This document shows positions 7,455 to 10,565 of a DNA stretch of 64,000 nucleotides, in pieces. Below the pieces are notes generated by a model that made no database searches, was not told the DNA's origin, and saw only the letters and a program-made list of their open reading frames with translations. Source of the stretch: Streptomyces sp. ALI-76-A (GTDB taxonomy: Bacteria; Actinomycetota; Actinomycetes; Streptomycetales; Streptomycetaceae); the NCBI RefSeq assembly GCF_030287445.1, contig NZ_JASVWB010000002.1:3472001-3536000 (forward strand), in the 5' to 3' direction. The translations under genes were made by a program, and so were the position numbers. Within the stretch, counting starts at the first letter, position 1, and every line of letters starts with the position of its first letter.

Positions 7455-8498
7455 TCAGGTCCACGGCTCGATGACCGTGACGCCCGACCCCGGGGCCGTG
7501 CCCATCGCCGCCAGCGCGGCCGGTGCCGCGTCCAGGGTGATCGTGGACGTGACGAGGAGGTCGGGGCGGAGCAGACCGGCCCGGACCAGGTCCAGCATCG
7601 GCGGGTAGGCGTGGGCGGCCATGCCGTGGCTGCCCAGGAGTTCGAGTTCCAGGGCGACGGCGCGGGCCAGCGGGACCGGCGTGGTGCCGTCCGGGGAGGG
7701 CAGCAGGCCCACCTGGACGTGGCGGCCCCTGCGGCGCAGGCCGTTCACGGAGGCGGCGCAGGTGGCGGGCGAGCCGAGGGCGTCCAGGGAGAGGTGGGCG
7801 CCGCCGCCGGTCAGGTCGAGGACGGCCCGCGCGGTGTCCCCGGTGCGGGAGGCGTCCACGCACTCCACCGCGCCGAACGTCCGCGCCAGCTCCAGGGCGT
7901 GCGGCGACACGTCCACGGCCACCACCCGGGCGCCCGACGCCGCCGCGATCATCACCGCGGACAGGCCGACGCCTCCGCAGCCGTGCACCGCGACCCACTC
8001 CCCCGCCGCCACCCGTCCCTGCCGCACCACCGCACGGAACGCCGTGGCGAACCGGCAGCCGAGCGAGGCCGCGGTGGCGAAGGACAGGTCGTCGGGGAGG
8101 GCGATCAGGTTCACGTCGGCGTGGTCCAGCGCCACGTACTGGGCGAAGGAGCCCCAGTGGGTGAAGCCGGGCTGGGTCTGCCGCTCGCACACCTGCTGGT
8201 CGCCCGCCGCGCAGGAGGGGCAGGTTCCGCAGGCGCAGACGAACGGGACGGTGACCCGGTCGCCGGGGCGCCACCCGGTCACCCGGGCGCCCACCTCCTC
8301 GACGACACCGGCCAGTTCGTGCCCCGGCACGTGCGGCAGCGTGATGTCCGGGTCGTGTCCCTGCCAGCCGTGCCAGTCACTGCGGCACAGCCCGGTGGCC
8401 CCGACGCGCACCACGGCCCCGTGCTCCGCGGGCACCGGGTCCGCCACCTCCCGCACCTCGGCCGGCTCCCCGTACCGCTCGAACACCACAGCCCGCAT
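7455..8498 (-). CDS. zinc-dependent alcohol dehydrogenase
   Basis: Medium-chain dehydrogenase/reductase of 347 residues that would oxidise an alcohol with NAD(P). Catalytic zinc ligands: C38 (GLCRSDWHG) and H60-E61 (PGHELAGVVEEVG). A structural zinc site follows at C90, C93, C96 and C104 in the C-x2-C-x2-C-x7-C pattern. The Rossmann motif is GCGGVG at 173-178. Start ATG at 8498. It stands alone, with the HTH gene convergent downstream, so the substrate cannot be deduced; formaldehyde, aryl or secondary alcohols are all possible for this family. Confidence 0.9.
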   Translation of the reverse strand: MRAVVFERYGEPAEVREVADPVPAEHGAVVRVGATGLCRSDWHGWQGHDPDITLPHVPGHELAGVVEEVGARVTGWRPGDRVTVPFVCACGTCPSCAAGDQQVCERQTQPGFTHWGSFAQYVALDHADVNLIALPDDLSFATAASLGCRFATAFRAVVRQGRVAAGEWVAVHGCGGVGLSAVMIAAASGARVVAVDVSPHALELARTFGAVECVDASRTGDTARAVLDLTGGGAHLSLDALGSPATCAASVNGLRRRGRHVQVGLLPSPDGTTPVPLARAVALELELLGSHGMAAHAYPPMLDLVRAGLLRPDLLVTSTITLDAAPAALAAMGTAPGSGVTVIEPWT

Positions 8499-8669: not shown

Positions 8670-8699
8670 TTCACAAGGCACGCGCATCTTCCTTACGCT
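8670..8699 (+). promoter_or_regulatory. promoter of the candidate RNA
   Basis: TTCACA at 8670-8675, 18 bases, then TACGCT at 8694-8699, a good match to a Streptomyces housekeeping promoter. The predicted start is about 8706. No ribosome binding site or convincing gene follows within the next 450 bases. Confidence 0.45.
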
Positions 8700-8705
8700 T
8701 GGGTC

Positions 8706-9141
8706 TCGCTCGCCGTATCCGGGCTCTTACGCACCTAACGGACATATGCAAGAGACGCAGATCACAGTGACGCGAACGTAACCATCGAAGGGGTTCGAAG
8801 GTCTAAGTTGACGATGTCAGGCAGCGTCTTGGGGGGCGTTTTCCTGACGTCTGAGGATGTCTTGGGGGACGTCCTCGGAGCTGCGTTGCCGGGGCACGTA
8901 CACCGGGGAGCTTTGAGCGGCCCTCCCAGCGTGCGCTGTCCCGGCAGGCCGCACACGGAGTAGTACGAGCGGTTTTGCTCGTTCTGCTCAACGGCAGCAC
9001 CCAGCAGTACCGCACAACAGCGATTCAGGCGCTGTTTTCTCACAGACGCCCGGCCGGATCCCGTGGGGGGAATCCGCACCGGGACATGGGAAGGCGCCCT
9101 GGACGCCGGCCCGTGGGGGGACCGGCGCCAGGGCGCCTTTT
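8706..9141 (+). ncRNA. candidate structured small RNA with twin UUGGGG loops
   Basis: Inferred transcript from the promoter at 8670-8699 to the terminator at 9091-9141. Hairpin 1: 8813-8821 pairs with 8843-8851 (9 bp), then after a small internal loop 8825-8828 pairs with 8835-8838, with loop UUGGGG at 8829-8834. Hairpin 2, one base later: 8853-8861 pairs with 8868-8876 (9 bp, one G-U), again with loop UUGGGG at 8862-8867. Further hairpins: 8917-8922 with 8947-8952 enclosing AGCG-TG-CGCT, and ACGAGC/GCUCGU at 8965-8982 with a 6-base loop. Two open frames inside (an 11-codon frame just upstream and a 49-codon frame from 8814) lack ribosome sites. A structured leader peptide region is the alternative; expression is untested. 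Confidence 0.5.
9091..9141 (+). terminator. 18-bp terminator with T-run, plus strand
   Basis: 9091-9102 pairs with 9128-9139 and 9104-9109 with 9122-9127, interrupted by one bulged A; the loop is 12 bases. A TTTTCTT tract follows on the plus strand, so this is a canonical intrinsic terminator for rightward transcription. It lies 26 bases beyond the citrate synthase stop and may also stop that gene leftward, but there the T-run is only two bases. Confidence 0.8.
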
Positions 9142-9166
9142 CTTATCGCCTACACCGCTACGGCGT

Positions 9167-10456
9167 TCAGCGCTCCTCGACCGGGACGAAGTCGCGCTCG
9201 ACGACGCCCGTGTAGATCTGGCGCGGGCGGCCGATGCGGGATCCCGGCTCCTTGATCATCTCGTGCCACTGGGCGATCCAGCCCGGCAGCCGGCCGAGGG
9301 CGAACAGGACCGTGAACATCTCGGTCGGGAAGCCCATGGCCCGGTAGATCAGGCCGGTGTAGAAGTCGACGTTCGGGTAGAGGCTGCGCGAGACGAAGTA
9401 GTCGTCGGAGAGCGCGTGCTCCTCCAGCTTGAGCGCGATGTCCAGCAGCTCGTCGGACTTGCCGAGGGCGGACAGCACGTCGTGCGCGGCGGCCTTGATG
9501 ATCTTGGCGCGCGGGTCGAAGTTCTTGTAGACCCGGTGCCCGAAGCCCATCAGGCGGACGCCGTCCTCCTTGTTCTTCACCTTGCGGATGAAGGAGTCGA
9601 CATCGCCGCCGGAGTCGCGGATGCCTTCCAGCATCTCCAGGACGGACTGGTTGGCGCCGCCGTGCAGCGGGCCCCACAGGGCGTTGATGCCGGCGGAGAT
9701 CGAGGCGAACATGTTCGCCTGCGAGGAGCCCACCAGGCGCACCGTGGAGGTCGAACAGTTCTGCTCGTGGTCCGCGTGCAGGATGAGCAGCTTGTCCAGG
9801 GCGGCGACGACGGTCGGGTCGAGGTCGTACTCCTGCGCGGGGACCGAGAAGGTCATGCGGAGGAAGTTCTCGACGTAGCCCAGGTCGTTGCGCGGGTAGA
9901 CGAACGGGTGACCGATCGACTTCTTGTACGCGTACGCCGCGATCGTCGGGAGCTTGGCGAGCAGCCGGATCGTGGAGAGGTTGCGCTGCTTCTCGTCGAA
10001 CGGGTTGTGGCTGTCCTGGTAGAAGGTGGACAGCGCCGAGACGACCGACGACAGCATGGCCATCGGGTGCGCGTCGCGCGGGAAGCCCCGGTAGAAGTTC
10101 TTGACGTCCTCGTGCAGCAGGGTGTGCTGCGTGATGTCGTTCCGGAACACGGTGAGCTCGTCGACGGTCGGCAGCTCGCCGTTGATCAGCAGGTAGGCGA
10201 CCTCCAGGAAGGTGGAACGCTCGGCCAGCTGCTCGATCGGGTAACCGCGGTAGCGGAGAATGCCCGCCTCGCCGTCGAGATAGGTGATGGCGGATTTGTA
10301 CGCGGCGGTGTTCCCGTAGCCGCTGTCCAGAGTCACCAGGCCGGTCTGGGCGCGGAGCTTCCCGATGTCGAAGCCCTTGTCACCGACGGTGCTGTCGACC
10401 ACCGGGTAGGTGTACTCGCCGTCGCCGTACCGCAGTACTACAGAGTTGTCGCTCAC
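9167..10456 (-). CDS. gltA: citrate synthase
   Basis: Condenses acetyl-CoA with oxaloacetate in the TCA cycle. The 429-residue product has the catalytic triad of type II citrate synthases: the His in PLHGGANQSV (about 265), the His in GFGHRVYKNFDPRA (about 307) and the Asp in NVDFYTG (about 364). The start is GTG at 10456 (SDNSVVLRYGDGEYTYP), preceded by GAGGG seven bases upstream; a GTG four codons earlier overlaps that site. It is called citA in S. coelicolor. The upstream region to 10711 is unusually rich in palindromes. Confidence 0.97.
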   Translation of the reverse strand: MSDNSVVLRYGDGEYTYPVVDSTVGDKGFDIGKLRAQTGLVTLDSGYGNTAAYKSAITYLDGEAGILRYRGYPIEQLAERSTFLEVAYLLINGELPTVDELTVFRNDITQHTLLHEDVKNFYRGFPRDAHPMAMLSSVVSALSTFYQDSHNPFDEKQRNLSTIRLLAKLPTIAAYAYKKSIGHPFVYPRNDLGYVENFLRMTFSVPAQEYDLDPTVVAALDKLLILHADHEQNCSTSTVRLVGSSQANMFASISAGINALWGPLHGGANQSVLEMLEGIRDSGGDVDSFIRKVKNKEDGVRLMGFGHRVYKNFDPRAKIIKAAAHDVLSALGKSDELLDIALKLEEHALSDDYFVSRSLYPNVDFYTGLIYRAMGFPTEMFTVLFALGRLPGWIAQWHEMIKEPGSRIGRPRQIYTGVVERDFVPVEER

Positions 10457-10565
10457 GTCATCCCTCACCGACGTTGTGCCTCTTCTTCGAGGTTGCCCTG
10501 ACTGTCTCTACCATCCCCCATTTGGCGCAGGAGAGTGCACTCGGGGTCGACCATTGGGCTTGCCT

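Follow-up and report, generated by a model that had tools for sequence, protein, structure and literature searches.

CsrB/RsmZ-type RNAs titrate proteins via several hairpins that carry the same purine-rich loop, and the number of copies varies between species. EutX and Rli55 act as sponges for ANTAR regulators. Among the small RNAs of Streptomyces, scr2634 is also named s-SodF. According to the available text of PMC3765725, scr2634 lies downstream of sodF in Streptomyces. As given in the main text of PMC8388888, scr2736 was among 11 sRNAs whose expression in S. coelicolor was confirmed by Vockenhuber et al., is kept in more than half of the tested Streptomyces, and has a homologue in S. ambofaciens, sRNA 10, that was detected by RNA-seq; by the same text, few Streptomyces sRNAs have an assigned function. 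In the main texts of the literature searched, we found neither a longer RNA nor G-rich hairpins described for scr2736.

Here we describe the locus of an scr2736 homologue in a window of 64,000 nucleotides of Streptomyces sp. ALI-76-A DNA. The initial annotation of this window had proposed a small RNA on the plus strand and a comparison with known S. coelicolor sRNAs. The 3' part is that of scr2736: the covariance model of Scr2736 (RF02831) scored 95.2 bits on the plus strand, above its cut-off of 43 bits. Conservation, covariation and a strand test likewise agree with the proposed RNA. The 64-nt RF02831 model runs through hairpin 3 into the terminator hairpin, of which it covers the 5' half; since the model stops inside a hairpin, studies built on it address part of the molecule. 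Locus type and strand are those of Scr2736, but the conserved RNA extends ~340 nt further 5' and includes hairpins 1 and 2, a core hairpin and several 5' blocks. Our preferred reading, which we put forward tentatively, is that the locus encodes a stand-alone RNA, non-coding and ~435 nt long, of which scr2736 is the 3' piece, and that this RNA acts in trans through repeated G-rich hairpins that would titrate a common partner. The features are as follows.

7455..8498, minus strand: zinc-type alcohol dehydrogenase, divergent upstream neighbour (Pfam PF08240 and PF00107)
8670..8699, plus strand: putative promoter TTCACA-18-TACGCT (sequence match; partial conservation)
8706..9145, plus strand: predicted full-length RNA, ~435-440 nt (ends placed by the -10 element on the 5' side and by the terminator on the 3' side)
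8752..8766, plus strand: conserved block 1, GAGACGCAGATCACA (AGATCACA in 101/109 aligned rows)
8778..8785, plus strand: conserved block GTAACCAT (100/109 rows)
8801..8806, plus strand: conserved block GTCTAA (96/109 rows)
8813..8851, plus strand: hairpin 1, UUGGGG apical loop at 8829-8834 (-20.5 kcal/mol, z -4.8)
8853..8876, plus strand: hairpin 2, 9 bp, UUGGGG loop at 8862-8867 (-14.3 kcal/mol, z -4.4)
8882..8953, plus strand: core hairpin, apical GCUUUGAGCGGCC at 8910-8922 (z only -2.3; conservation)
8958..8990, plus strand: linker hairpin in a poorly conserved stretch (z -6.2)
9047..9110, plus strand: Rfam RF02831 Scr2736 (95.2 bits against a gathering score of 43)
9049..9083, plus strand: hairpin 3, CCCGUGGGGGGA at 9060-9071 (motif in 108/109 rows; z -1.4)
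9089..9141, plus strand: terminator hairpin (hairpin 4), second CCCGUGGGGGGA at 9110-9121 (-48.4 kcal/mol, z -6.5; motif in 109/109 rows)
9167..10468, minus strand: citA, citrate synthase, convergent neighbour (Pfam PF00285, 470 bits)

Ends and alignment of the RNA

The fold of the whole interval 8706-9145 gave a z of -5.9, and none of 100 shuffles reached an equally low energy. Conservation was read from 109 aligned rows, the window and 108 of the 115 other genomes that matched in a DNA search; because similarity was the criterion for including a row, the conservation displayed is conditional on it. One badly captured row, L107, was dropped from several alignment steps and from the strand and reading-frame tests and retained in the 109-row match counts, and L031, L033 and L056 (insertions or N) were excluded from alignment A3.

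The promoter elements are spelled and spaced as initially annotated: TTCACA at 8670-8675, an 18-nt spacer, and TACGCT at 8694-8699. The -35 sequence recurs in 51/109 aligned rows and the -10 sequence in 42/109, while many rows without them, including those of a clade in which a P-type ATPase gene lies upstream, show other sequence there. A strict sigma-70 scan found no promoter, and the putative promoter thus rests on a looser match and partial conservation. At the other end, the "textbook" terminator stood up in the window, where T-rich sequence follows the hairpin, but its T-run is unconserved: the commonest tails among the aligned homologues have short T-runs.

Repeated G-rich hairpins and the core hairpin

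Both G-loop hairpins were found at the initially annotated coordinates, as 9-bp stems one base apart with UUGGGG loops; the 9-bp outer stem of hairpin 1 contains one G-U pair and is followed by an internal loop. Most relatives have the same loop in both hairpins, but not equally often. The loop sequence CTTGGGGG was present in 107/109 rows in hairpin 2 and in 91/109 rows in hairpin 1, which is missing or has another loop in the remaining 18 (several clades). The suggestion that selection acts on the loop is supported for hairpin 2, in which 7 of 9 pairs were changed on both sides among 41 representative rows while the loop stayed constant except in L067. It is not supported for hairpin 1, where double-change cells showed no excess (10 versus 10.1 in shuffles) and a covariation of 0.112 versus 0.107 was matched by 113/500 shuffles; hairpin 1 was dropped as a covarying stem. 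For the interval 8853-8956 (41 rows), 87.0% of cells were paired compared to 82.2% in shuffles, and covariation was 0.198 versus 0.117 (0/500 shuffles); double-change pairs numbered 13 versus 11.0, a count reached by 106/500 shuffles.

The core hairpin, which was absent from the initial annotation, had five double-change pairs in its outer helix and none in its apical helix (41 rows). GCTTTGAGCGGCC was exact in 91/109 rows, and 12 more rows had one T fewer. As the folding energies of the core hairpin and of hairpin 3 are not exceptional, both rest on conservation. Gaps occur in the linker downstream (~8958-9030) in roughly half of the rows or more. In the window, the loop of the core hairpin could pair with GGCCGC (8947-8952) as a pseudoknot; its downstream side varies and the pairing is broken in relatives (by eye), and we rejected it.

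Two further G-rich hairpins, hairpins 3 and 4, also missed initially, carry the 12-mer CCCGUGGGGGGA. Its sequence CCCGTGGGGGGA was exact in 108/109 rows in hairpin 3 and in 109/109 rows in hairpin 4. Across 9043-9141 (44 rows), 97.7% of cells were paired versus 93.1% in shuffles, covariation was 0.231 versus 0.138 (0/500), and there were 10 double-change pairs versus 7.0 (8/500), all within the terminator hairpin. Because nearly all pairs of hairpin 3 are invariant, covariation neither supports nor contradicts it. The apical CCC/GGG pairs of hairpins 3 and 4 were invariant in 44/44 rows, which is more than a plain helix needs.

Most genomes have two copies of CCCGUGGGGGGA. A change in copy number was observed in six: L162, L164 and L166 have a single copy with one mismatch, L300 and L301 have three copies, and L302 has six, the hairpin pair being repeated three times in tandem. 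A separate occurrence of the 12-mer was seen in G317, on a contig other than that of the RNA, where a 15-base tandem repeat, CCCGTGGGGGGAACG, contains it (G317:C36:47394-47480); three of the four motif matches in G317 are this repeat and not the RNA.

In the titration mechanism that we favour, the G-rich hairpins would all be docking sites of a single type and titrate one partner, which may be an RNA-binding protein or else a C-rich RNA, and the RNA would act in trans; the 5' blocks and core hairpin may perform a second, older job. Judged from the aligned sequences, the fixed loops on variable stems (hairpin 2, terminator), the invariant 12-mer and its variable copy number all appear to point this way. 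On the other side, the change in copy number could be neutral tandem duplication, and the conserved 5' blocks resemble seeds for pairing rather than parts of a sponge. Titration is also not the ancestral role, as the G-loops are missing in family genera that keep the core hairpin. The repeated 12-mer offers a direct bait for a partner search.

The resemblance to CsrB/RsmZ-type RNAs lies in the multiple hairpins with the same loop and in their variable number (1, 2, 3 or 6 copies of the 12-mer, the singles with one mismatch). The RNA differs from them in having no ANGGA loop, and it has a core hairpin and long 5' blocks that are conserved. A search of its own genome for CsrA (PF02599) found none (0/1; the control was positive in 3/14 known genomes), and a CsrA sponge was rejected on this basis.

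Alternative readings and the citA neighbourhood

The most serious alternative, which we consider possible although somewhat unlikely, is an ordinary trans-acting antisense RNA, in which the 5' blocks AGAUCACA, GUAACCAU and GUCUAA are seeds for mRNA pairing and the G-rich hairpins stabilise or terminate the transcript. The near-invariance of the three blocks argues for it, as does the lack of a consensus helix: RNAalifold returned no consensus structure for 8744-8812. By reading, the reverse complements of two blocks contain start codons (AUGGUUAC and UGUGAUCU), and by eye shorter forms of the blocks are readable upstream in genera without G-loops. Against this reading, most of block 1 is base-paired when the window sequence is folded singly; also left unexplained are the fixed G-loops on freely changing stems and the invariant multi-copy 12-mer with its change in number. 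There is nevertheless a good case that the conserved 5' blocks have an antisense role, in addition to titration or instead of it. In L163, L165, L300 and L310 we noticed that the first block is a dyad, TGTGAC-GCAG-GTCACA or close to it; this dyad, seen in the tandem clade described below and in some other genera, might fold into a hairpin in the RNA or be bound by a protein as DNA.

An unlikely reading is that of a cis-acting element of citA, either a shared terminator or a convergent RNA that limits read-through or expression of citA. Position argues for it. The RNA lay on the 3' side of citA in 264/264 loci where the motif pair and citA were both present, in convergent orientation in 251 and in tandem in 13. 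The second motif was at most 600 nt from the citA end in 256 loci, 600-1000 nt in 6, and ~3 kb in 2 (L172, L275). These 264 loci come from pooled sets in which some genomes are counted more than once, and exclude loci with no citA on the fetched stretch (4/108 in one set, 9 of at least 118 in another) or no motif pair (1/30, 3/9); L182 has a partial citA only. In one clade the RNA stands directly behind citA, as the cis reading would have it, but the occurrence of both orientations argues against it, as do the two loci at ~3 kb. In addition, a terminator alone needs no 435-nt RNA with fixed blocks and loops, and the window shows no overlap with the citA coding sequence, since ~20 nt separate the end of the RNA from the citA stop.

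The tandem loci were L105, L108, L140, L158, L160, L161, L163, L165, L167, L224, L244, L253 and L263. In a tree built from citA (192 rows, 164 with labels), the 11 tandem loci that carry a label formed one clade and required one change, and the tandem placement is therefore most likely the result of one flip. By reading, the conserved block in L165, of this clade, begins within ~10 bases of the citA stop. In another Streptomyces clade (L173, L301), the first conserved block lies 12 bases past the stop of a P-type ATPase gene, which we take to be CopA; there the RNA would need an internal promoter or processing from the ATPase mRNA. Both clades indicate that the upstream neighbour, and probably with it the source of transcription, changes while the RNA and citA stay together. 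Like scr2634, as far as the latter is described in the available text, the RNA is a Streptomyces sRNA located where a metabolic gene ends, but it is mostly convergent to citA and on the other strand, and the tandem clade alone resembles a 3' UTR RNA. In the window itself the RNA is convergent, on the other strand than citA, and so is not a citA sRNA derived from the 3' UTR. The link to central metabolism raised in the initial annotation is drawn from the citA neighbourhood, which by itself does not show a functional link.

More improbable is an antagonist of 6C RNA, whose C-rich loops the G-rich loops would kiss and titrate. 6C RNA (RF01066) is also an actinobacterial RNA of paired hairpins with homopolymer loops; its loops are C-rich, whereas those of the RNA described here are G-rich on the transcribed strand, which sets it apart from 6C RNA. 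The 6C RNA of the same genome is a separate gene (G000:C2:4927412-4927487, 46.4 bits against a cut-off of 47). 6C RNA was found in 56/61 genus genomes at E 0.001, 29/61 being above the Rfam cut-off; the copies read have UCCCCCC in their loops, which allows 6-7 bp of pairing with GGGGGA, and the duplex energies were -14.3 and -20.3 kcal/mol, values that leave out the cost of opening the hairpins. However, runs of six C are frequent in this DNA (13 and 15 per 64 kb), which makes such pairing unspecific, hairpins 3 and 4 keep half of their G run in base pairs, and since both runs are fixed they cannot show co-variation.

A sponge for an ANTAR regulator is highly improbable. Hairpins 1 and 2 do recall ANTAR targets in being two adjacent stems with six-base loops and in having G at loop position 4. 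However, ANTAR-target sites require A at loop position 1, as stated in the available text of PMC8164766, and UUGGGG has U there; the linker is 1 nt rather than 2-25, and hairpin 1 is missing in several clades. On these grounds the RNA was rejected as an ANTAR target.

We give equally little credence to a functional RNA on the minus strand, which in the manner of 6C RNA would block Shine-Dalgarno sequences by means of C-rich loops, here placed in the 3' UTR of citA. The minus strand folds well too (z -6.2) and would present CCCCCC loops. But G-U outnumbered C-A by 174 to 10 when hairpin 2, the terminator and part of the core hairpin were counted together (44 representative rows), and hairpin 1 alone gave 61 to 30, which indicates that the RNA is the plus strand; the minus-strand candidate was rejected by this count. 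The Rfam match is also on the plus strand, and in the tandem clade the G-loops are on the citA strand.

Least likely of all is a small protein: the initial annotation had seen no gene with a ribosome site here, and although the window does hold a 51-aa open frame at 8808-8963 with an upstream GAAGG, this frame is not conserved, running from 8 to 53 codons from the aligned start with no stop in the translated stretch of 36/108 rows, and hairpin 1, inside it, is missing in several clades.

Distribution and a possibly older core

A DNA search matched 116 of 121 Streptomyces genomes (own genome included). We used two covariance models, R1 (8853-8956) and R2 (the 3' part of the RNA); the five genomes missed by the DNA search and four others all matched R2 (9/9, E at most 5e-4). 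An RNA so conserved, matched in 121/121 genus genomes and kept near citA, likely matters to a genus known for antibiotics. The exact motif pair occurred in 12/396 phylum genomes, all of the own genus, and in 81/150 family genomes from 9/17 genera. R1 matched 30/61 family genomes (8/17 genera) and, with strict filters, 26/296 class genomes, exclusively in the own genus. Three Streptomyces genomes were found by R2 where other searches missed them: G398 has no exact motif pair and was missed by R1, G861 has no exact motif pair, and G449 was missed by R1. The exact dual motif had no match in viral contigs, nor did 8740-9145 in plasmids, which gives no sign of a phage, mobile or plasmid origin.

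A scan of named genomes returned at least 118 stretches; among the matches listed were 110 from Streptomyces, three from Actinacidiphila, one from Kitasatospora, one from Microtetraspora and three from unrelated bacteria. The last three, L192 (Viridilinea), L198 (a bin of Anaerotruncus) and L241 (Sorangium), contain the repeated 12-mer or near-copies with no citA on the fetched stretch, and were set aside as unrelated. The Microtetraspora record, L203 (Microtetraspora glauca NRRL B-3735), has citA and, next to it, the complete RNA of the Streptomyces type, and is likely a misnamed Streptomyces. R2 also gave weak matches in family genomes without G-loops (best G122, E 4.9e-4; the rest E 0.006 to 0.4); those checked (L311, L313, L314, L315, L317) hold neither citA nor the 12-mer, and we regard these matches as chance.

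We then consider the citA loci of 12 family genomes, of which L355 was already positive and eleven were negative by R1 and the motif pair. Eight of these eleven (L356-L363) have TGAGCGGCC within the citA 3' flank on the antisense strand, where ~0.01 such 9-mers per flank are expected by composition; at the citA 3' flank of the other three (L364-L366) it was not found. In L356-L363, TGAGCGGCC caps a long hairpin with a different stem sequence, whose z against shuffled arms ranged from -1.1 to -5.3 and was thus partly exceptional. Unfiltered R1 covered the hairpin in 7 of the 8 loci at E 0.0006 to 0.14, the match in L362 lying beside it; as other matches begin at E 0.022, L356, L357, L360 and L363 (E <0.01) are the ones that exceed noise by R1 alone. 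The Rfam Scr2736 threshold was reached in 0/8 of these loci, and in 2 of the 17 loci scanned in all, which came from the tandem clade and from further genera (L124 and L132, both with G-loops).

The core hairpin, with apical UGAGCGGCC, was present in most family genera examined, including genera without G-loops. This suggests that the G-loops are a later addition, or that they were lost there. A more specific version of the titration reading, which we think rather unlikely as a whole, would combine an older Streptomycetaceae core (5' blocks and UGAGCGGCC hairpin) with an expandable G-rich array (CCCGUGGGGGGA, UUGGGG) gained in Streptomyces and allied genera; the array would bind a protein not known as titrated, in the manner of CsrB without CsrA. 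As a separate observation, a second hairpin, GGGGUUCCGGCGGACCCC or close to it, recurs upstream of the core hairpin across several of the genera without G-loops represented by L356-L363.
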